Source: Sulfurimonas sp. (lineage in GTDB: Bacteria; Campylobacterota; Campylobacteria; Campylobacterales; Sulfurimonadaceae). Taken from it: DNA of 34,957 nucleotides. Positions 439-9,518 of this stretch are shown here, piece by piece. The translations under genes and the position numbers were made by a program. Within the stretch, counting starts at the first letter, position 1. Each line of letters begins with the position of its first letter. The stretch lies in the NCBI GenBank assembly GCA_027071075.1, contig JALSUU010000082.1:1-34957 (forward strand), in the 5' to 3' direction. The notes under the pieces are model-generated. The model ran no database searches. It was not told the origin of the DNA and was given only the letters and a program-made list of their open reading frames with translations.

Positions 439-948
439 CTAGTTTTTCTCCCCAAAAATCAATCTATCAAGTGAAAACTTTCCAGCACCTTGAGTCAAAA
501 GAACGAGTAAAAAGATGATGTAGTATAGTGGCATCTCAAATCCATTTTGTAGCGTCACAATAGTCCCCATAACCTGTGTGCCATTTATCCAAGGGTCTAC
601 TACTTCACTACCCGCTTGCACCATTGCGAAACCATTGACACCATGAACAGTTGCAATCGCTACTAACATAATCACGATAAGTGGTATAGATATAGCACGC
701 GTTAAAAGTCCTAAAGTCAAAAGAACCACTCCACCTACTTCTGTACTTGCTGCCATATACGCATTCAGCGTTGGAAAAGGAATTCCCATAGAACCAAACC
801 ACATCGCAACAGAATCAATATCTGCCCACTTCATCATCGCAGGAGCATAAAAACTATATGCCACTATCAAGCGAACAGCAAGCAAACTCACCGATTTTCC
901 ATACTCACTTAAACGCGTAAACTCTTTATATATATCTTTGACACACAT
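439..948 (-). CDS. DoxX family membrane protein
   Basis: A 169-residue protein of the DoxX/DoxD-like family. It has four hydrophobic segments (about residues 20-40, 60-85, 86-110 and 135-155) and family hallmarks: RLIVAYSFYAPAMMKW near the N-terminus, the amphipathic SVAMWFGSMGIPFP loop, and GGVVLLTLGLLTR before the third helix. It acts in the inner membrane; DoxX proteins are linked to thiol/redox functions, but the reaction is not established for most members. They often accompany DUF692/DUF2063 RiPP loci (for example in Neisseria). Here the gene is about 2.5 kb away from such a locus, with two plus-strand chemotaxis-type genes between, yet its promoter (979-1010) has the same unusual layout. 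GAGGAG at 955-960 is the ribosome-binding site. A decayed gene follows. Confidence 0.85.
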   Translation of the reverse strand: MCVKDIYKEFTRLSEYGKSVSLLAVRLIVAYSFYAPAMMKWADIDSVAMWFGSMGIPFPTLNAYMAASTEVGGVVLLTLGLLTRAISIPLIVIMLVAIATVHGVNGFAMVQAGSEVVDPWINGTQVMGTIVTLQNGFEMPLYYIIFLLVLLTQGAGKFSLDRLIFGEKN

Positions 949-978: not shown

Positions 979-1010
979 ATTGTATCGCTTCTGTGTGTAG
1001 TTTTTGTGTA
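979..1010 (-). promoter_or_regulatory. Promoter with 11-bp direct-repeat operator (DoxX gene)
   Basis: Read on the minus strand: TACACAAAAAC (1010-1000), TACACACAGAA (999-989), 4 nt GCGA, then the -10 box TACAAT (984-979). No good -35 box is seen; the repeats occupy that place. The expected start of transcription near 972 gives a leader of about 24 nt to the ATG at 948. The same 11+11+4+6 layout recurs at 5242-5273 and 8031-8062. Confidence 0.75.
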
Positions 1011-1137
1011 ACTGACTGAGTAGTACAACTATTATGAAATTTAAGCAATTTTGACTCTTAGCTTAGTTTTAATTTACCGTGAATATAAGCAATCTTTAGG
1101 CTTCAATTTGATACTATTTTCTTAATAAGGATTTTGA

Positions 1138-1434
1138 ATGCAAATTACTCATACGAAAATTGGTAATCTTTTAACTATAGATATCACTGAACATATAACG
1201 GGGATTCAGGAAGTTAGTGCTATTAGAACAGTTATACAAGAAAACAATGGATTTGATACTATAAAACTCAATATTGTGGATGCATTTGTTATTCCATCGG
1301 CACTCATAGGGTATCTGATGAAATTGACTAATATTGACAAAAAAAATATTTCTATCATTGCGCATCAAAAAGAACTAAATCAATTACTAATTGATCTTGA
1401 GCTTGATCAACTTTTTAGATTAAACCGAGGATAA
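1138..1434 (+). CDS. STAS-domain protein (anti-sigma-antagonist-like)
   Basis: A 98-residue soluble protein with the fold pattern of a STAS domain: beta strands at about 10-16 and 41-46, the stretch [11 protein letters not shown] (residues 50-60) in place of the SpoIIAA phosphosite loop and helix, then [23 protein letters not shown] as the last strand and helix. Ser54 is where the phosphorylated Ser of the family would be; the preceding Asp of the usual D-S pair is absent. The stop codon is one base before the ATG of the chemoreceptor at 1436, so the two are almost certainly co-translated. Role unknown; it may scaffold or report on receptor signalling. Assignment is by pattern, with no search. 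Confidence 0.65.
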
Positions 1435-1435
1435 G

Positions 1436-3406
1436 ATGAGTACATTTACTAAAAAAACTTCAATCAGTATGAAGATTCATATTCCTCTCGTAGCTTCTAT
1501 GGTTTTAGGCTTTGTTATGGTGGTTTTTATCGCTACTAGCAGTACAGACAAGGTAGAAGAGAATATCTATCAACAAGAGACTCTATCTATACAAAACTAT
1601 ATAGATGAAGCATTAAAAGAGAAATACTCTGTTGGTCTTACAAATGCAATTATGCTCTCAAAAAATGAAGTGCTTCTTGAGTCTTTAGCAGAAAACAACA
1701 AAGCAATGGCACTCACAGAAGCAAAAAAGATTGTGAAAGCCTTTAAAGATGGCACAAAATTTAAAAATGTCAAAATTCACATCCATGATAAAAATGTTCA
1801 CAGTTTTTTAAGAGTTTGGAAACCAACAAAAAATGGTGATGATCTTAGTGGGTTTAGAGCTACTATTTTAGAGGTAAAAAGAACTCAAAAACCTCTTGTA
1901 GCTATAGAGGTTGGAAGAGCAGGTCCTACTATTAGAGGTTTATCTCCAATGATAAAAGATGGTAGTTATATTGGTTCAGTAGAGTTTATGCAAGGTTTTA
2001 ACTCTATAGTTAAAGACACAAAAAAAACTATCAACTCCTCAACTCTTGTGCTCTTAAACAAAGATGCAGAATCAATTGCATCCCTTTACAAAGGTGCAAA
2101 CCAAACAAGAGTGGCAGGTTTACTTGTAGCACAAAAAGATGCAACAATTGATAAAAGATTTGTACAAGAGTTAGCTGGAAAATCATTACAAGATATTAAA
2201 AATGGTATTGTAATCGAAAACTACTTTGTGCGTTCAATCCCTATGAAGGATTTTAAAGGAAATGTTATAGGAGAGATAGTTGTTGGGAAAGACCTTAAAA
2301 TTGTACATAAAGCAGTAGATATTGCAACTAATTCTTTAGTGACACAACTTATTGCTATGGCTCTTATCGATTTTGGTGTACTTCTTATTGTGATATTTAG
2401 CATCAGTAAGCTTGTCAACACTCCTGTGCGTAATCTACTTGATGTTGTAAAAGATCTCTCAAAAGGAAAAGGTGACCTTACAAAGAGACTTCCTATCAAA
2501 TCCAATGATGAACTAGGAGAGGTTAGCTTTTATATCAATGAATTTATCCAAGTAATCCAAAATTTAACAAATGACATTAAAACTACAGCAGAAAAAAATG
2601 CAAAACTGAGTCAAGCTATCTTAAAAAATTCGAATCGACTTGATGCTATTTCAGAGAATCAACTTGGTTTTGTCAATAAATCAAATATTTTAACATCTCA
2701 AGCAAAAGATGATCTTGATATATCAGAAGAGCTTGCAAACAAAACTTCTCAAGATGTTATAAATAGCTATGGTGTTCTTGAAACATTAGAAAATGCAAGT
2801 ATAGCAGTTACTCAGATGGTAGAAGAAGATACTGATAAAGAGCGAGAATTAGCTGATAAAATTAGCTCTTTAGCAACTCAAGCTAATGAGATTAAAGATA
2901 TCCTCAATATCATAAAAGATATAGCAGATCAAACAAACCTTCTAGCCCTAAACGCCGCCATAGAAGCAGCACGCGCAGGTGAGCATGGTCGTGGATTTGC
3001 TGTTGTTGCAGATGAAGTAAGAAAACTTGCAGAAAAAACTCAAAAAAGTATTGGTGAGATTGATGCTACTGTTATGGTCGTTGTTCAAAATGTTCAAGAG
3101 ATTTCAGGAGAAATGAATCAAAATAGCAACAATATCAACGCACTAAGTAATCAAACAAACAAAATGATAGAGACTCTTGAGAAATCTAAAAATGTAACAC
3201 TCATAACAATAGATGCTTCAAAAGAGTCATCACAAAAAACAGTATTTATAGGTCATAAAGTCAAATCTCTTTTCGATGTAATGCAAGAGACAATGAAAGT
3301 TTCGCAAAATACTAAAAAGTTGTCCTCAGAACTTGAAAACTTAGGAAGAGAACTTGAGATTAGCAGTAAGTCTCTAAATAATAAACTTAGTGAGTTCAAA
3401 AGTTAG
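1436..3406 (+). CDS. Methyl-accepting chemotaxis protein with dCache sensor
   Basis: A 656-residue transmembrane chemoreceptor. TM1 covers about residues 13-32. The periplasmic sensor (33-300) looks like a double Cache domain of the dCache_3 kind: it contains [19 protein letters not shown] followed by GDDLSGFR and then [18 protein letters not shown]2 is about 303-322, HAMP about 323-375 ([22 protein letters not shown]), and the signalling hairpin tip is about 497-530 with [20 protein letters not shown], near-invariant in the family. It would pass ligand occupancy to CheW/CheA and so to the flagellar motor. No C-terminal CheR-binding pentapeptide is seen; the protein ends NNKLSEFKS. The ligand cannot be told from sequence. 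It is coupled to the STAS gene upstream and converges on the DUF2063 gene. Confidence 0.93.
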
Positions 3407-3482
3407 TAGCCATTGTTGTATTTGCCCTTTTATATCTACAAGCCGATTACTTTGAACTTATACACTCTTTTCAATTGGAGTT

Positions 3483-4187
3483 CTAAAGCGTAAGTATATT
3501 TTCACCGTGAAAGTGTTCCAAAATAGGTAAAAGGATTTCAAGGAGTTCTTCATTCTCTATCTCATACACCTCAGCAATCTTCTCTATACTCTGCATCGTT
3601 GATAGATTTGGCGTTAAAGAGAGTAAAAATTCCTCTATAAAAGGCGTAATTTCCTCATAAAGGACTTCTTCACTTTTCGCATTATAGTAAAAAAGAATAG
3701 TAAACTCACCACTCTCAAAAGCCTCTGGATTTGAATCAAAATCAGGATGATGCACTGGGTAAGAGAAGTGTCTGATATTTGCTTCTTTTGAAAAAGCATA
3801 ACTCTTTTGTAGTGAAAATGAGCTCTTTGTATGGTCGCTATACTTTTGCATAAACATCTCTATCTCTAAAAACTCAAACTCCAACAAATCAGCTAAATAG
3901 GGCATATCTAAATCATTTTTCTCTATTAAAAAAGCTTTAAACTCTCCACTCACTCTCCAAAGGATAGGTGTCTTTGCACCTACTTTTAAAAACTCATATA
4001 TGAGTCTATCAAAAGTTTCCTCACTCACCATCTTTTTAAAACGAGGATAGGCTTTCTCAAACACTTCTAAAAAGCGGTAGTAGACTAACTCGGTATAGAC
4101 TTCTATCGCCTCACTTGGCATCGATACTTCTTCTTGTTTTGTGATAGTGTTGATAAATCGTTTTTGTATACTCTGTTCTAGTTTCAT
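3483..4187 (-). CDS. bufC: DUF2063 / BufC-HvfC-type partner of an MNIO enzyme
   Basis: A 234-residue protein with the arrangement of the DUF2063 family: an N-terminal helical domain (about 1-95) with MPSEAIEVYTELVYYRFLEVFEKAYPRF and a C-terminal domain in which the chain is read in FYYNAKSEEVLYEEITPF. In bufferin and HvfABC loci this partner binds the DUF692 enzyme and presents the RiPP precursor to it. The gene overlaps the DUF692 gene by the 4-nt ATGA junction (4184-4187), so translation is coupled, and the gene order precursor-DUF692-DUF2063 is the standard one. The stop codon lies about 75 bp from the end of the convergent chemoreceptor. The role is taken from family and context; N-terminal domain confidence is good, the C-terminal part is divergent. 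Confidence 0.85.
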   Translation of the reverse strand: MKLEQSIQKRFINTITKQEEVSMPSEAIEVYTELVYYRFLEVFEKAYPRFKKMVSEETFDRLIYEFLKVGAKTPILWRVSGEFKAFLIEKNDLDMPYLADLLEFEFLEIEMFMQKYSDHTKSSFSLQKSYAFSKEANIRHFSYPVHHPDFDSNPEAFESGEFTILFYYNAKSEEVLYEEITPFIEEFLLSLTPNLSTMQSIEKIAEVYEIENEELLEILLPILEHFHGENILTL

Positions 4188-5011
4188 GAGTAAATCTTCT
4201 GCATATATCTGTACTCTTGCATCATTGATGCATAATCTGGAACATCATTATCTCTCTCTAAAAGCAAGGGTTTATCTACCCCACCCTCTTTGACATACTC
4301 AAGCAAATCCCATACTGCATCTTTTACTTTTTCACCATGTGTATCTATGAACAGATCCTCGCTCACTTCCATGTGTCCAGCTATGTGCATGTAAGCGATA
4401 TTTTCATAATCAATTTTGTCTAAAAAAGCTTTAGGGTCAAACTTATGATTGTGCGAATTTACAAAAACATTGTTCACATCTAAAAGAAGTTTTGCACCAC
4501 TTCTTTTTATAACCTCATTAATAAAGTCGGTCTCTTCCATCTCAGCATAAGGAACATAATAGTACGAAGCATTCTCTAAAGCAATACTTCGTCCAAGTAT
4601 ATTTTGCACTGCATCAACTCTCTCACAAATATAGTTAACCATATTTTCAGTCATAGGGAGTGGGAGTAACTCATACATCTGTTTGTTATCAAGGGTGCAA
4701 AAAGAGAGGTGTTCGGAGTAATACTCTATCTCATACTCATCTAAAAAACTTTTTAAATCGGTGAGAAATTTTTTATCCAAAGGAGTATTTGAACCAATTG
4801 AAAGGGATAAGCCATGTGCGACTATCTCAAAATCACTCACAATTCGTTCAAATGTTTTTCGGTGTTTAGCATGCATGTACATCCAGTTTTCAGGAGTAAT
4901 CTCAAACCAAGATGGCTTGAAATCATTTGCATACACATCATGCATAAACTCTGTTCTTAAACCTAGACCACAAGAGTATGGAGTCTTTAAAAGCAGAAAA
5001 TTTTGAGACAT
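4184..5011 (-). CDS. bufB: DUF692 multinuclear non-heme iron oxidase (BufB/HvfB/MbnB family)
   Basis: A 275-residue TIM-barrel enzyme that would convert Cys residues of the neighbouring precursor into oxidised heterocycles (thiooxazole or oxazolone/thioamide in studied relatives). Family metal-site residues are visible in order: H66 in VAHGLSLSIG, E100-H101 in YYSEHLSF, E146-N147 in ALENASYY, D178 with N180/N181 in LLLDVNNVFVN, H187/H189, H209 and H213 in YMHIAGH, D223 and H225 in IDTHGE, E252 in LLLERD. I take the start at ATG 5011: the protein then opens MSQNFLLLKTPYSCGLGLR, as in the family, 4 nt after the precursor stop and preceded by AGTAGAGAT. An in-frame extension up to 5146 is possible but would run through the precursor gene. 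Cytoplasmic. Confidence 0.92.
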   Translation of the reverse strand: MSQNFLLLKTPYSCGLGLRTEFMHDVYANDFKPSWFEITPENWMYMHAKHRKTFERIVSDFEIVAHGLSLSIGSNTPLDKKFLTDLKSFLDEYEIEYYSEHLSFCTLDNKQMYELLPLPMTENMVNYICERVDAVQNILGRSIALENASYYYVPYAEMEETDFINEVIKRSGAKLLLDVNNVFVNSHNHKFDPKAFLDKIDYENIAYMHIAGHMEVSEDLFIDTHGEKVKDAVWDLLEYVKEGGVDKPLLLERDNDVPDYASMMQEYRYMQKIYS

Positions 5012-5015
5012 ATCT

Positions 5016-5210
5016 CTACTTGCTACCGCACTTAGTTTCAGCTTTATCGCCACCACATTTTGAAGTAGGTGCTTTTTTATCGCTACCACATTTACCAGAA
5101 GCACCACACTTACTACCACCACACATACCCATTGAAGCACAACCACTTGCCATCGTCATAACACCAAGAACTGATGCACCTACTACTAACTTTTTAATAT
5201 CTTTTCTCAT
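5016..5210 (-). CDS. bufA: Cys-rich RiPP precursor with KCG motifs (bufferin/HvfA type)
   Basis: A 64-residue secreted peptide. Residues 1-23 form a signal peptide (MRKDIKK then a hydrophobic stretch) ending at MASGC, so Cys24 could be lipidated. The mature part is Cys, Gly and Lys-rich with KCG at C35, C41, C52 and C61 plus MCGG at C30, spaced by polar linkers. This matches precursors of DUF692 enzymes: export signal plus repeated (E/A/S)GKCG-like cores, as in HvfA, more than the DUF2282 type of bufferin. The DUF692 gene begins 4 nt after its stop. AAAGGAT provides the ribosome-binding site. The likely product is a modified periplasmic or lipid-anchored metal-binding peptide, most probably for copper; the metal is inference. 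Without modification it could still serve as a simple metallothionein-like protein. Confidence 0.85.
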   Translation of the reverse strand: MRKDIKKLVVGASVLGVMTMASGCASMGMCGGSKCGASGKCGSDKKAPTSKCGGDKAETKCGSK

Positions 5211-5241
5211 TTGAAAATCCTTTGTTTGTTTTGTTGGTCTA

Positions 5242-5273
5242 ATTGTAGCTACTGAGTGTGCAAAGTTTGTGTA
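5242..5273 (-). promoter_or_regulatory. Promoter with 11-bp direct-repeat operator (bufABC)
   Basis: Minus strand: TACACAAACTT (5273-5263), TGCACACTCAG (5262-5252), 4 nt TAGC, -10 box TACAAT (5247-5242), then about 31 nt to the ATG at 5210. The second repeat differs from the consensus at one half-site base (TGCACA for TACACA). Spacing equals that at 979-1010 and 8031-8062. Confidence 0.75.
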
Positions 5274-5284
5274 GTGATTTTTGT

Positions 5285-5312
5285 TTGTTATAGCATCATT
5301 ATATGTTATACT
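5285..5312 (+). promoter_or_regulatory. Candidate sigma70 promoter for the HD-GYP operon
   Basis: TTGTTA at 5285-5290 and an extended -10, TG-T-TATACT (TATACT 5307-5312), with a 16-bp spacer. Transcription would start about 20 nt before the ATG at 5337. It is divergent from the bufABC promoter; the repeat operator (5252-5273) lies just upstream. Confidence 0.5.
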
Positions 5313-5336
5313 TCAAAAGTTTAAAAAAGGAAAAAC

Positions 5337-6440
5337 ATGTTTCAAAACCACTCATGCAATATGAATAACACTGACTCTATTATTCGTTTTATCCTCTCCT
5401 TTATCATAGGTATTATCGCTATTTATACCGAGTGTTATCTCCTCTTTTTACTCAGTTTTATCATCGCTTATACTGCGGCAAAGCATTTTTGTTTTATCTA
5501 CTACTTTTTAAAAATCAATGAACGCTTTAGCTCGAAAAACTACTACCTTACTTTTTTACCAAAATACAACCCCTCTGCTGTTTTTATCTTTGACATAAGT
5601 GGAAAAGTTGTTTTTAAGAACGATGCCGCCAAAAGTACGCTTCCTGATGTAGAGGCAACAACTTGTCTTACTATTAAAGATTTTAAGTCTATCATCCAAA
5701 ACTCTCGTTGTGAAAACATTATATTTACAAATAGTGATGCAAAACACTATAAAGTAGAAATTCAAGGAATAGCAAAAGAGCAACTGCTTCTTGCATATCT
5801 CACAGATATCACTGAAATTATAGAACTCAATGATGCAATAGAGGAGACACAAAGAGAGGTCATCTATGCTATGGGTGAGATAGGCGAGACTCGTTCTAAA
5901 GAGACTGGAAACCATGTCAAAAGAGTTGCCCTCTATTCAAAAGAGTTAGCCATCCTCTATGGTCTCTCGGACAAAGAAGCAGATAAACTACAGATGGCTT
6001 CTCCTATGCACGATATCGGTAAGGTAGGAATTCCTGATGCTATTTTAAATGCACCAAGAAAACTCACAAAAGAGGAGTTTGAGATTATGAAAACACATGC
6101 CCAATTAGGTTTTAATATGCTCAAACACTCCAACAAACCCATCCTGCAAGCTGCAGCAATCGTCGCTAACGAGCATCATGAAAAATGGGATGGAAGTGGT
6201 TATCCAAATGCAAAAAGTGGTGAAGATATACATATCTATGGTCGCATCACTGCTGTTGCGGATGTTTTTGATGCACTTGGCAGTGAGAGAGTTTATAAAA
6301 AGGCTTGGAATTTAGAAAAAATTCTTGCTCTTTTTAAAGAGCAGAGTGGCAAACATTTTGATCCAGAGCTTGTAAAACTTTTCTTAAAAAATTTAGATAC
6401 TTTTTTAAAAATCAGAGATAAATTTCAGGATAAATTTTAA
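5337..6440 (+). CDS. Membrane HD-GYP phosphodiesterase with DUF2892-like N-terminus and PAS-like domain
   Basis: A 367-residue protein that should hydrolyse cyclic-di-GMP. Residues 9-60 look like a DUF2892/YgaP-type two-helix membrane unit: NMNNTDSIIRFILSF, a second hydrophobic helix, then AAKHFCFIYYFLKIN. Residues 75-160 resemble a degenerate PAS fold (PSAVFIFDISGKVVFKNDAA). The HD-GYP domain follows (about 170-360): ETGNHVKRVALYS, the HD pair at about 225-226 in SPMHDIGKVGIPD, HHEKWDGSGYP at about 280-290 and DVFDALGSERVYKKAW. All metal-site residues I know for the family appear kept. The stop overlaps the next start by one base (TAATG at 6438-6442). RBS AAAGGAAAA precedes ATG 5337. Signal sensed is unknown. 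Confidence 0.85.
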   Translation: MFQNHSCNMNNTDSIIRFILSFIIGIIAIYTECYLLFLLSFIIAYTAAKHFCFIYYFLKINERFSSKNYYLTFLPKYNPSAVFIFDISGKVVFKNDAAKSTLPDVEATTCLTIKDFKSIIQNSRCENIIFTNSDAKHYKVEIQGIAKEQLLLAYLTDITEIIELNDAIEETQREVIYAMGEIGETRSKETGNHVKRVALYSKELAILYGLSDKEADKLQMASPMHDIGKVGIPDAILNAPRKLTKEEFEIMKTHAQLGFNMLKHSNKPILQAAAIVANEHHEKWDGSGYPNAKSGEDIHIYGRITAVADVFDALGSERVYKKAWNLEKILALFKEQSGKHFDPELVKLFLKNLDTFLKIRDKFQDKF

Positions 6441-6805
6441 TGACTATAGCGCATTTCAAAATTTACTGTGAGATTGCTAGTTCTCCTCATGTACTCAGTC
6501 GTGCACTCAAAGTTTCTCTTATTGTCGGCACTCTACTCAACCTTATAAACCAGGGAGATCTGCTTCTCTCTTTAGAGCTTGAAAAATTGCACCTTATAAA
6601 AATTTCACTTACCTATCTCGTGCCATTTTGTGTTGCTACCTATACGGCAACCGCTTTAAATTTGGACTTTAAAATAGGCTCAAAAGCTGTTCTCAAAGCT
6701 GATTTAGAGTGTAAAAAATGTAAATATAAGATTCATATTCACAAAGATGCACTCATACCAGAGTGTCCACACTGTGGCATACAAACAAAATGGAGATTAA
6801 AATAA
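6440..6805 (+). CDS. NrtS-like membrane protein with C-terminal zinc ribbon
   Basis: 121 residues. Residues 18-73 match the small NrtS family (nitrate/nitrite transporter) in pattern: RALKVSLIVGTLLNLINQGD as the first helix, then KISLTYLVPFCVATYTA as the second. The C-terminal part (85-121) is not typical of that family: it carries two Cys pairs, C91-x2-C94 and C109-x2-C112, in a rubredoxin/zinc-ribbon arrangement (ECKKCKYKIH and PECPHCG). It may be a metal- or redox-sensing tail. The start and stop overlap both neighbours in TAATG junctions, so it is translated with the HD-GYP protein and the hydrolase. Transport function is inferred from family pattern only. Confidence 0.65.
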   Translation: MTIAHFKIYCEIASSPHVLSRALKVSLIVGTLLNLINQGDLLLSLELEKLHLIKISLTYLVPFCVATYTATALNLDFKIGSKAVLKADLECKKCKYKIHIHKDALIPECPHCGIQTKWRLK

Positions 6806-7668
6806 TGAAAATAGTCCTATTCGCACTACTGAGTATCACTCTACTTTTTGGTGCAAAAATTGAATTTGAAGTGCTTGGTTCTGGTGGCCCTGAGATAGAT
6901 GGTCGTGCAAGTACCTCTTACTTACTCTGGATAGATAATGAAGCAAAACTCATAGTAGATATGGGGAGTGGCTCTATGCTACGATTTGAGGAATCCCATG
7001 CAAAAATTGAAACCCTCGAAGCCGTTGTACTTACCCACTTACATATAGACCATAGTGTAGATCTCCCCTCTTTTGTAAAAGCAGGATACTTCTCACAAAG
7101 AACGAAAAGTTTAGATATTATCGGACCCGATGATAACTGGTATTTCCCATCTACAAGTGAGTTTTTAGAAAATCTTTTTGGAAGTGACGGTGCTTATAGA
7201 TATATGAAAGATGTTTTAGAAGAGAAAAATGACTCCTTCCAAATCATCCCTTTTAACATAGATGAAAAAACAACAAGAAAATATAAAAGTTTTACACTAA
7301 CAATGATACCCGTGCATCATGGAATAGTTCCAGCACTTGCAGTGCGTATAGATGTGCAAGGTAAAAGCATTCTAATAAGTGGTGACACAAACAATAAAAA
7401 TCACTCTTTAGAAAAACTTGCTAAAGGTGTTGACCTTTTTGTAGCGCACCATGCCATTCCTGAGTATGCACAAGGCTATGCAACAGAGCTTCATATGAAG
7501 CCAACAGAGATTGCTAAGATTGCAAAAAACGCACATGTAGAAGAAGTTTTACTCACGCATAGAATGAAAAGAACCTTAGGTGTAGAACAAGAAACAATGA
7601 ATATAATAAGTAAGGTTTACAAAGGAAAAGTAAGTTTTGCAGAAGATAAAATGAAGGTAGAGCTATAA
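6805..7668 (+). CDS. Exported MBL-fold metallo-hydrolase
   Basis: A 287-residue metallo-beta-lactamase-fold protein with an N-terminal signal peptide (MKIVLFALLSITLLFGA). Metal-site motif THLHIDH has H78, H80, D82 and H83; further ligands are in PVHHG, SGDTN and LTHRM. The layout resembles ribonuclease Z/arylsulfatase-like members, but here the protein is sent to the periplasm; substrate unknown. Start chosen at ATG 6805, which overlaps the previous stop (TAATG) and has TGGAGA eight bases upstream; the signal peptide then begins at residue 1. A longer in-frame start at 6763 would lie inside the NrtS-like gene and break the signal peptide. It converges on the orphan precursor gene. Confidence 0.88.
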   Translation: MKIVLFALLSITLLFGAKIEFEVLGSGGPEIDGRASTSYLLWIDNEAKLIVDMGSGSMLRFEESHAKIETLEAVVLTHLHIDHSVDLPSFVKAGYFSQRTKSLDIIGPDDNWYFPSTSEFLENLFGSDGAYRYMKDVLEEKNDSFQIIPFNIDEKTTRKYKSFTLTMIPVHHGIVPALAVRIDVQGKSILISGDTNNKNHSLEKLAKGVDLFVAHHAIPEYAQGYATELHMKPTEIAKIAKNAHVEEVLLTHRMKRTLGVEQETMNIISKVYKGKVSFAEDKMKVEL

Positions 7669-7688
7669 CAGAGTCAAACTCTGTTATA
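7664..7688. terminator. Perfect inverted repeat between convergent genes
   Basis: Arms TATAACAGAGT (7664-7674) and ACTCTGTTATA (7678-7688) with a 3-nt CAA loop. It includes the stop codon of the hydrolase and lies before the stop of the opposing precursor gene. No T tract follows on either strand, so it may act as a bidirectional terminator or mRNA-end stabiliser. Confidence 0.5.
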
Positions 7689-7705
7689 AAAGAGTGAGGG
7701 AGAGT

Positions 7706-8002
7706 CTATTTTCCCCCACATTTCCCTGCGCCACATTTCATCTTTGCTGGAGCTTTTTTCTCTCCACCACATTTTTTTACTATTTTTTCTGCACCACCGC
7801 ATTTACCAGCACCACACTTTTTCGCTACTTTTTCTGCACCGCCACATTTACCAGCACCACACTTCATCTTCTTCTCAGATTTTTCAGAAGCACCACCACA
7901 TTTACCTGCACCACACTTGCTTGATGCACTTAAACTAACTGCACCTAGACCTGTAAAAAGAGCTGCTCCAAGAAGTAAAGCTGTAAGATTTAACTTTGAC
8001 AT
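7706..8002 (-). CDS. Orphan Cys-repeat precursor with KCGAGKCGG modules (HvfA-like)
   Basis: A 98-residue secreted protein. Residues 1-27 are a signal peptide (MSKLNLTALLLGAALFTGLG, cleavage probably after SLSAS). The rest is Cys-Gly-Lys-Ala: four copies of KCGAGKCGG (residues 29-37, 47-55, 62-70, 89-97) and one lone KCGG (77-80), nine Cys in all, joined by Lys/Glu-rich linkers. The motif is that of DUF692-dependent precursors of the HvfA type, and resembles the precursor at 5016-5210. No DUF692 or DUF2063 gene adjoins it; the pair at 3483-5011 could act in trans. Its promoter has the same direct-repeat layout as that locus. RBS AAAGGA. The alternative is an unmodified periplasmic metallothionein-like metal sponge. 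Confidence 0.82.
   Translation of the reverse strand: MSKLNLTALLLGAALFTGLGAVSLSASSKCGAGKCGGASEKSEKKMKCGAGKCGGAEKVAKKCGAGKCGGAEKIVKKCGGEKKAPAKMKCGAGKCGGK
7712..7918 (-). repeat. Four coding repeats for KCGAGKCGG
   Basis: Repeat units lie at 7918-7892, 7864-7838, 7819-7793 and 7738-7712, separated by 18 to 54 bp of Lys/Glu/Ala coding sequence. The DNA of the units is nearly the same (complement of the recurring CCACCACATTTACC and GCACCACACTT stretches), so copy number could change by slippage or recombination. Confidence 0.8.
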
Positions 8003-8030
8003 TTGTATATCCTTTGTATAATTTGGGATT

Positions 8031-8062
8031 ATTATACATTAGTTTTGTGTAGAGTTTGTGTA
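8031..8062 (-). promoter_or_regulatory. Promoter with 11-bp direct-repeat operator (orphan precursor)
   Basis: Minus strand: TACACAAACTC (8062-8052), TACACAAAACT (8051-8041), 4 nt AATG, -10 box TATAAT (8036-8031), then 28 nt to the ATG at 8002. This is the cleanest of the three copies: the first eight bases, TACACAAA, are identical in both repeats. Confidence 0.8.
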
Positions 8063-8984
8063 CAGATGCTATAATGTTGAAAAATTATCCAAAGGTGTTC
8101 CCATTATTTTAAGTAAAAAATCTCTTTTAGAGCAGTTTCAATCATTTCACAAAGAGTTCAATCCAAAAACTATGGAAGATGCAGTAGAGAAGTTTGCTAT
8201 CTTTGGTGGTGTTGGATGGGGAAACCTAGATACATCTAAAGAGAGTATGCAACTCATAGAAGAGCTTATTCTTCCTGATTTTCGTTTTATTCGCAATGAT
8301 GTAACAGAACTTACAACAGGACTTCCTCTGCATCATGCTATTCTCACAGCTATTGCACTTGGGGATGGACGAACACATACTGCATACAGACGGGCAAATG
8401 TTTCTAAAGAGGTTGGCGATAAAGCTATTGAGGAGTTATGTGAGAGTGGGATTATACGCCTTGAGAAATCAAAAGCGACTTTTACATCTTGGAAAGAGAA
8501 TGAGAGTGTATCAAACAAACTTTACTTTACTTCACCCTTTTTACGCTTTTGGTTTGCTTTTATATCGCCTATATTTAAAGGTATTCGAGATGGGGATTAT
8601 AAAGAAATTCGTGAGCGATTTGCAAATAGAAAGAGTGAATTTTTACAACTTACCTTTGTAGAGTTAGCCCATGAACTTATCAAAATGAACTTTGTTGAAG
8701 ACCCTATTGTAGAGATAGGTGAGTACTGGGACAACAAGATTGAACTTGATATTTTTGCTACTACGGAGTCAGGGGAGGTAGTTGTTGGTATTTGTAAATA
8801 TACTACGACTAAAGTGAAAAAAAGTGAACTCACAAAACTTCAAGAGTTATGCAAAGAAGCAAAAATAGAAGCCGATATTTTTGTCATCGTGTCAAAGTCA
8901 GGTTTCTCAAAAGAACTCAAAAACTTAAAGTCTAAAGAAGTAAGATTCATCACGCTTAAGAATTTTCAAAAATTGGTCGCATAA
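8058..8984 (+). CDS. DUF234-type protein (start uncertain)
   Basis: The open frame gives 308 residues from GTG 8058. The protein resembles the C-terminal DUF234 half of archaeal-type ATPases, seen alone in Campylobacterota: a winged-helix region (HTAYRRANVSKEVGDKAIEELCESGIIRLEKS, broken here as HTAYRRANVSKEVGDK and EELCESGIIR), then FTSPFLRFWFAFISP and a nuclease-like part with WDNKIELDIFATTESGEVVVG. No P-loop ATPase domain is present. The true start is probably later than 8058, because a strong -10 lies at 8070-8075: the first good ATG is 8172, but similarity-like sequence (SLLEQFQSFHKEF) begins before it, so a non-standard ATT at 8103, behind AAAGGTG, is possible. Its stop abuts the next ATG (8985). 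Function unknown. Confidence 0.65.
   Translation: MYRCYNVEKLSKGVPIILSKKSLLEQFQSFHKEFNPKTMEDAVEKFAIFGGVGWGNLDTSKESMQLIEELILPDFRFIRNDVTELTTGLPLHHAILTAIALGDGRTHTAYRRANVSKEVGDKAIEELCESGIIRLEKSKATFTSWKENESVSNKLYFTSPFLRFWFAFISPIFKGIRDGDYKEIRERFANRKSEFLQLTFVELAHELIKMNFVEDPIVEIGEYWDNKIELDIFATTESGEVVVGICKYTTTKVKKSELTKLQELCKEAKIEADIFVIVSKSGFSKELKNLKSKEVRFITLKNFQKLVA
8067..8075 (+). promoter_or_regulatory. Extended -10 promoter for the DUF234-type gene
   Basis: TGCTATAAT at 8067-8075 is a full extended -10. The -35 region would fall in the repeat operator at 8041-8062, so a regulator that activates the divergent precursor gene may affect this promoter. Transcription would begin near 8082, downstream of the GTG at 8058. 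Confidence 0.6.
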
Positions 8985-9518
8985 ATGAGACAAAAAGTTT
9001 TACTCCTGCATGGATGGGGAGGGAGTGATTATCCTCATTGGCAAGCTTGGTTAGCAGGGGAGATAGCAAAAGAGTATGGAGTAGTCAGTTTTTTAAAGTT
9101 TAGTGACTTTGATACACCTAAACTTGCTGTTTGGAGAGAAGAACTGCTTCAAGAGTTAAAAGATTTTCAGCCAGATATAGTCATCACACACTCTTTAGCA
9201 AACACACTTTGGTTTCACTTATGCAATGAAAATATTTTGCCAGAAATACAAAAACTCTACCTTGTGGCACCACCAAGTAACAGTTGTAGTACTGAAGAGT
9301 TACAAGAGTTTTTTCCTCTCGCTCTTCCTAAAAAACTCTTTGCAAAAGAGGCGATGCTCATCACCTCAACAGATGATCCCTATATGAGTGTAGACGAGGC
9401 TAAAGCGATGCAGGAAAGCTTAGATATACCGATGAAAGTGTTAGAAAATGCAGGACATATAAATAGTGATAGTGGGTTTGGAGAGTGGCCGTGGATGCTT
9501 AAAGAGCTTCACTCTTAA
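8985..9518 (+). CDS. RBBP9/YdeN-family alpha/beta hydrolase
   Basis: 177 residues, the usual size for the family. It opens with VLLLHGWGGSDYPHWQAWL, the hallmark of RBBP9/YdeN serine hydrolases. The nucleophile is Ser70 in ITHSLANTLW, in place of the classical GxSxG. An acidic residue in STDDPYM (about 128-130) and His about 158 in NAGHINSDSGFG complete the triad. Cytoplasmic; substrate unknown. ATG 8985 directly follows the stop codon of the DUF234-type gene, so both share an mRNA. Confidence 0.85.
   Translation: MRQKVLLLHGWGGSDYPHWQAWLAGEIAKEYGVVSFLKFSDFDTPKLAVWREELLQELKDFQPDIVITHSLANTLWFHLCNENILPEIQKLYLVAPPSNSCSTEELQEFFPLALPKKLFAKEAMLITSTDDPYMSVDEAKAMQESLDIPMKVLENAGHINSDSGFGEWPWMLKELHS

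Follow-up and report, generated by a model that had tools for sequence, protein, structure and literature searches.

A shared direct-repeat promoter box before scattered Hvf-type genes of Sulfurimonas sp. and its probable link to a copper-sensing two-component system

A stretch of 34,957 nt from Sulfurimonas sp. (GenBank assembly GCA_027071075.1, contig JALSUU010000082.1, positions 1 to 34,957; hereafter, the window) contains three minus-strand promoters that carry the same regulator box, two 11-bp direct repeats followed by a -10 hexamer, in front of genes of the Hvf type, which are related to copper-binding ribosomally synthesized and post-translationally modified peptides (RiPPs). The first box with its promoter (979..1010, minus strand) precedes a DoxX-family gene (439..948, minus; Pfam DoxX) of the HvfX family of Cu-binding RiPP maturation proteins (NCBIfam NF050144, 132.5 bits, cut-off 80). 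The second (5242..5273, minus) precedes an operon whose first gene (5016..5210, minus) encodes a 64-aa Cys-rich KCG peptide with a signal; it matches no family model in Pfam or NCBIfam, and its sequence and position make it a probable HvfA-like precursor. It is followed by the gene of an HvfB-like enzyme of the multinuclear non-heme iron-dependent oxidative (MNIO, DUF692) family (4184..5011, minus; Pfam PF05114, 1e-94; NF003818 HvfB, 334 bits, cut-off 360) and by that of an HvfC-like DUF2063 partner protein (3483..4187, minus; Pfam PF09836; NF050145 HvfC, 91 bits, cut-off 142). The third (8031..8062, minus) precedes a separate transcription unit (7706..8002, minus) for a 98-aa KCGAGKCGG peptide of the HvfA family (NCBIfam NF050137, 36.4 bits, cut-off 19.5), whose signal peptide was assigned by eye. 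HvfX and HvfA exceed the curated cut-offs, while HvfB and HvfC are the best models yet fall below theirs. The Hvf genes of the window are divided among three transcription units, with plus-strand genes between them.

Read on the minus strand, site 1 (1010-979) is TACACAAAAAC-TACACACAGAA-GCGA-TACAAT, with repeats at 1010-1000 and 999-989, the -10 TACAAT at 984-979 and a predicted +1 A at 972. Site 2 (5273-5242) is TACACAAACTT-TGCACACTCAG-TAGC-TACAAT, with repeats at 5273-5263 and 5262-5252, the -10 TACAAT at 5247-5242 and a predicted +1 A at 5235. Site 3 (8062-8031) is TACACAAACTC-TACACAAAACT-AATG-TATAAT, with repeats at 8062-8052 and 8051-8041, the -10 TATAAT at 8036-8031 and a predicted +1 A at 8024. 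All three match TRCACA-N5-TRCACA-N9-TAYAAT exactly. The layout described in the original prediction, repeat(11)-repeat(11)-4 nt-(-10), is correct at each promoter, and so is its statement that the window holds no fourth copy, since none is found even at 3 mismatches. The repeats do share a core at all three promoters; however, this core is strictly TRCACA and not TACACAAA, as the second repeat at 5242-5273 begins with TGCACA. The absence of a -35 box had also been read correctly, but it is weak evidence because Campylobacterota promoters frequently have no conserved -35.

An alignment of 121 distinct sites gives the position of the box relative to the transcript. An A lies 7 nt past the -10 in 77% of them, at a position that the search pattern left unconstrained, and start codons follow about 30 nt downstream of the -10. 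In the window, direct reading of the sequence places an A at this predicted start at all three sites. The repeats span -38 to -17 relative to it, which is the place of a -35 box. In PhoB-type activation, two 11-bp direct repeats lie in the -35 region of sigma-70 promoters. The 11-bp period is well kept: when the spacing was relaxed to 2-10 between the repeats and 5-14 before the -10, the 5-nt gap was retained in 57 of the 60 matches, and both N5 and N9 in 53.

Under a first-order Markov model of the window, the expected number of exact matches is 2.7e-5 for the window and 0.0019 for the whole 2.4-Mb genome, and dinucleotide shuffles of the window give a mean of 0.47 sites with 3 mismatches allowed. 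The genome itself has four exact sites, the three in the window and one at C46:3170, as well as a 1-mismatch site (C5:1336) and a 2-mismatch site (C123:28490); the reversed pattern has no match there. A scan of 200 family genomes found exact matches at about 107 places, spread over 52 of the genomes, and no match to the reversed pattern. Of 249 genomes drawn from across the class, approximately 230 belong to other Campylobacterota families, and only 4 of these, from two families, have a site. The pattern is therefore not common at random sites, and the family counts, the kept spacing and the near-absence outside the family indicate that it is not a by-product of AT-rich sequence. Conservation at orthologous promoters, which the original prediction had made a test of its proposal beside rarity at random sites, is also observed in relatives, before DoxX, the KCG peptide and, in four of the five MNIO-bearing members of the genus, the MNIO operon (two of these boxes have one mismatch).

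The genes directly downstream of the box in relatives belong to few families. These are DoxX/HvfX, the KCG peptide (the 98-aa type is under the same box in many relatives) and a GMC-oxidoreductase operon with a conserved 62-aa leader open reading frame (ORF). Further targets are crdA-tolC-czcB-czcA (for example, at loci L060-L062, L085, L087, L094, L095, L099 and L101), DsbD, CopA-type ATPase, multicopper oxidase, MsrA, MsrB, MsrP-MsrQ and thioredoxin-like proteins; for Msr and thioredoxin, the names come from a reading of the sequences. In the genome of the window, the C46:3170 site lies upstream of a 64-aa ORF followed by genes of a gluconate-2-dehydrogenase-subunit-3-like protein and a GMC oxidoreductase, the C5:1336 site lies upstream of dsbD and the C123:28490 site upstream of a multicopper oxidase gene. 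The ORF between the box and the gluconate-2-dehydrogenase-subunit-3 and GMC-oxidoreductase genes is itself conserved (61-65 aa, MCIPHGA...EKGDPDFVDER...; L006:3283-3477, L067, L068, L072, L118, L124, L126, L127 and L130) and matches no family model. In Sulfurovum-type genomes (L232, L233, L235, L241, L250 and L280), genes for small secreted proteins of the MKKLVLASILALGLGLGFAYADGEK type lie downstream of the box; the proteins have no match to the regulon proteins of the Sulfurimonas family and are possibly new copper-induced periplasmic peptides.

The genome encodes 16 clear OmpR-type regulators. The candidate response regulator is encoded at G000:C119:4429-5082 (locus L015) and is followed immediately by a kinase gene at 3288-4436. 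This C119 regulator is the closest own-genome relative of 15 of the 21 OmpR-type regulators found in site-bearing loci, and the C119-type regulators near sites form one clade (support 100/99). An ortholog with at least 53% identity is present in 41 of the 52 site-bearing genomes and in 10 of the 148 site-free ones (p = 5e-23, shared ancestry being ignored), and seven of these ten have sites with 1-2 mismatches near the regulator or its targets. When the same comparison of site-bearing and site-free genomes is limited to genus members possessing HvfX, the regulator is found in 29 of 32 versus 3 of 19. In 0.96 Mb around the regulator in the set of named genomes, there are 104 sites at up to 2 mismatches and no match to the reversed pattern. 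Moreover, in 11 loci, mostly of Sulfurovum and other Campylobacterales, the box stands before the regulator's own gene, at a distance of 7-47 nt. The proposal that the repeats serve an OmpR/PhoB-type regulator gains support from this, as one response-regulator clade adjoins the sites and, in other genera, sits under them.

The protein linked to the sites has both parts of such a regulator: a winged-helix Trans_reg_C domain (PF00486, over cut-off) and an intact receiver with its phospho-Asp, in which D8, D9, D50 and K100 are invariant in 21 homologs. PmrA/BasR is among its closest solved relatives. In the kinases, the region between the two membrane helices contains Met63 in 98% and His119 in 92% of sequences, and His62 is often conserved as well. 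This fits a copper or silver sensor, in which these residues would act as ligands. Two further observations concern regulator loci. A degenerate box, TTCACTAAAAACTCACAAGAATATACTATAAT (4 mismatches), is located at L133:6084 on the minus strand, 33 nt before the gene preceding the own response regulator, and might be a weak autoregulatory site. On the Sulfurospirillum plasmid pSulSP (L287, 6453-12288), a relative of the regulator, together with its kinase, stands immediately in front of msrP and an msrQ-like gene and diverges from a GMC-oxidoreductase pair; this locus has only 3-mismatch boxes and is flanked by Tn3 and IS21 elements, so the copper module may be mobile.

Comparison of sequences shows the box with its geometry and targets and ties it to the regulator clade; binding, phosphorylation, the copper signal, co-expression and the function of the peptides are what we infer. 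Very probably, the box, which marks copper-defence genes in many related genomes, belongs to one copper-sensing two-component system. With good though not full confidence, the three sites of the window can be taken for activator boxes of a single OmpR/PhoB-family regulator of copper and periplasmic stress similar to CusR and CrdR, likely the C119 regulator, which would activate them jointly on copper. Since one box stands at three units, the induction of a copper-binding peptide and of the enzymes that assist it appears to be joint, though their genes are scattered. The kinase would sense excess periplasmic copper or copper-linked oxidation. The phosphorylated C119 regulator would then bind the two repeats and recruit sigma-70 RNA polymerase to the -10, in place of a -35 box. 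The genes activated in this way would be HvfX, the operon of the HvfA-like peptide, HvfB and HvfC, and the HvfA KCG peptide in the window and, elsewhere in the genome, dsbD, the multicopper oxidase and the GMC-oxidoreductase operon; the KCG peptides would buffer periplasmic copper.

Several points weigh against this assignment. The regulator gene in the genome of the window adjoins no site; no strict box was found at its operon, which is preceded only by a weak box with 4 mismatches. Five genus members with sites have only a sister regulator of 43-49% identity, and the box may therefore serve several regulators. The co-occurrence of regulator and sites is partly shared ancestry. Finally, copper as the signal is deduced from the target genes and the conserved His and Met residues.

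The strongest alternative keeps the OmpR-family box but takes an oxidised or chlorinated periplasm, as for HprSR, or another soft metal such as silver, for the main signal, with the copper genes being only a part of the response. The presence of MsrA, MsrB, MsrPQ, DsbD and thioredoxin-like genes among the targets favors it, as does the example of E. coli: there, HprR has its box in common with CusR, and hypochlorous acid (HOCl) is a far stronger inducer of msrPQ than copper (PMC9302797). Nevertheless, the recurrent transport targets are of the copper type (crdA-czcBA, CopA, multicopper oxidase, HvfA) and Met and His are conserved in the sensor region, which leaves this signal a real but minor chance. 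It is rather improbable that the binder in this genome is another OmpR-family regulator, a paralog of C119. The number of such regulators in the genome and the five genus members with a sister regulator only would allow it; however, no sister was detected in the genome of the window at the threshold used (this genome is a draft of 285 contigs, so genes could be missing), the autoregulatory boxes and the adjacency favor the C119 clade, and the other 15 regulators show no comparable recurrence next to sites. Hardly any weight can be given to reading TRCACA as recognition elements of an extracytoplasmic function (ECF) sigma factor or as the site of a CueR- or CsoR-like metal sensor that binds a dyad. 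ECF sigma and NrsF genes are indeed frequent in bufferin clusters (PMC12452194), but the two equal repeats are direct and not dyad, their 11-bp period is fixed, the -10 is a sigma-70 TAYAAT, and response-regulator genes carry the same box; both candidates were disfavored on these grounds. Chance or composition has practically no probability as an explanation: TATAAT-like hexamers alone should be common in a window of only 35% GC, but four sites against 0.002 expected per genome, no reversed match in 200 genomes and 226 site-free genomes of 230 in other families mean that the Markov, shuffle, reversed-pattern and other-family controls rule out a chance origin of the repeats.

When the proposed copper regulon is compared with known systems, CrdRS of Helicobacter pylori, in which copper induces crdAB/czcAB, is among the closest: it likewise combines an OmpR-family regulator with a transmembrane kinase in Campylobacterota. 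CrdRS controls the crdA-crdB-czcB-czcA operon on copper (PMC9696931), and the box precedes such operons in relatives of the window's genome. The regulon described here goes beyond it by including MNIO/Hvf peptides, HvfX, GMC oxidoreductase, DsbD and Msr. About 226 genomes from the other families of the class hold no exact box, and the hits included no named record of H. pylori, whose regulator is HP1365; concerning the CrdR binding site, PMC9927306 contains no binding-site terms. E. coli CusRS and HprRS are also two-component systems for copper or HOCl, with RND (resistance-nodulation-division) copper efflux and msrPQ as targets, copper inducing msrPQ through CusSR; however, their box is an inverted repeat, CATTACAAAATTGTAATG (PMC9302797), whereas direct repeats are found here, and the regulator falls well short of the cut-offs that NCBIfam sets for the Cu/Ag regulator and HprR. 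The geometry in the -35 region is common to PhoB/PmrA-type activation, but the repeat is TRCACA and not a TGTCA-type pho box, and the targets are copper and redox genes and not phosphate genes. The HvfABCX/oxazolin and bufferin systems (PMC12452194) involve the same protein families, as judged for HvfB and HvfC by best model below cut-off; there, the genes form one cluster, while here three transcription units stand under one two-component box. A single cluster is not a strict requirement for HvfABCX, because stand-alone precursors are known (PMC12452194).

The literature search found no described copper regulon for Sulfurimonas or Sulfurovum, and no study of MNIO genes under two-component control among its titles and abstracts. 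The present comparison offers an explicit operator, a promoter geometry, a candidate sensor and regulator, and a target list for copper defence in these genera. It also links copper-binding RiPP-type peptides with a two-component system, in contrast to the ECF sigma genes often carried by known bufferin clusters.

The RiPP enzyme itself is not a constant part of this regulon. Among the 200 family genomes, MNIO genes are present in 16, HvfX over the cut-off in 92 and KCG peptides in 64, 51 of which have no detectable MNIO (a hand count from lists); single-contig genomes (G117, G138, G140 and G142) are in this MNIO-free set. The exact share of MNIO-free peptides is uncertain, because the HvfA model has only 29 positions and genes may be absent from draft assemblies. 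In a published survey, EGKCG precursors without MNIO were reported for 67 of 2583 genomes (PMC12452194), whereas most relatives considered here have the peptide without MNIO. KCG peptides are alike with or without MNIO, and MNIO-free ones are often under the same box. In turn, the MNIO operons of other genera (g6, g9, g14 and g17) have no box at up to 3 mismatches within the flanks covered, and control of MNIO by the box is therefore limited to the genus of the window. The "dispersed RiPP regulon" of the original prediction fits the window but is too narrow, as the RiPP genes are one part of a regulon for copper and periplasm repair; most relatives have the KCG peptide and DoxX but not the RiPP enzyme, so that in the wider unit, a copper regulon, this enzyme is optional. 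We suggest tentatively, giving it slightly less than an even chance, that in Sulfurimonas and its relatives the HvfA-type KCG peptides are induced by copper and bind metal in the periplasm unmodified, or owe their maturation to an enzyme of the regulon other than MNIO; the core would be the box, the peptide and HvfX, with the MNIO pathway an accessory gained by a few lineages, this one among them. Because KCG peptides often occur without the modifying enzyme, the need for modification can be tested by comparing sister species.

A second type of KCG peptide, unlike the signal-peptide type of the window, is lipoprotein-like, with the pattern MKCGAGKCGANMFDGNSAL...KKKKNILSQMRE..R..CV (L069, L070, L072, L075, L081, L099, L100 and L119). 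The surroundings of the window's KCG peptide gene recur in relatives as well. A metallo-beta-lactamase-fold gene (6763-7668) adjoins it, likewise in L067, L107, L111, L119 and L120; a Lactamase_B_2 gene is also reported for MNIO clusters of the CxxxxC type (PMC12452194). A DUF234 gene and a serine-hydrolase gene (8058-9518) are divergent from the KCG peptide promoter, and this pair adjoins sites in many relatives (L070, L080, L102, L107, L111 and L119).

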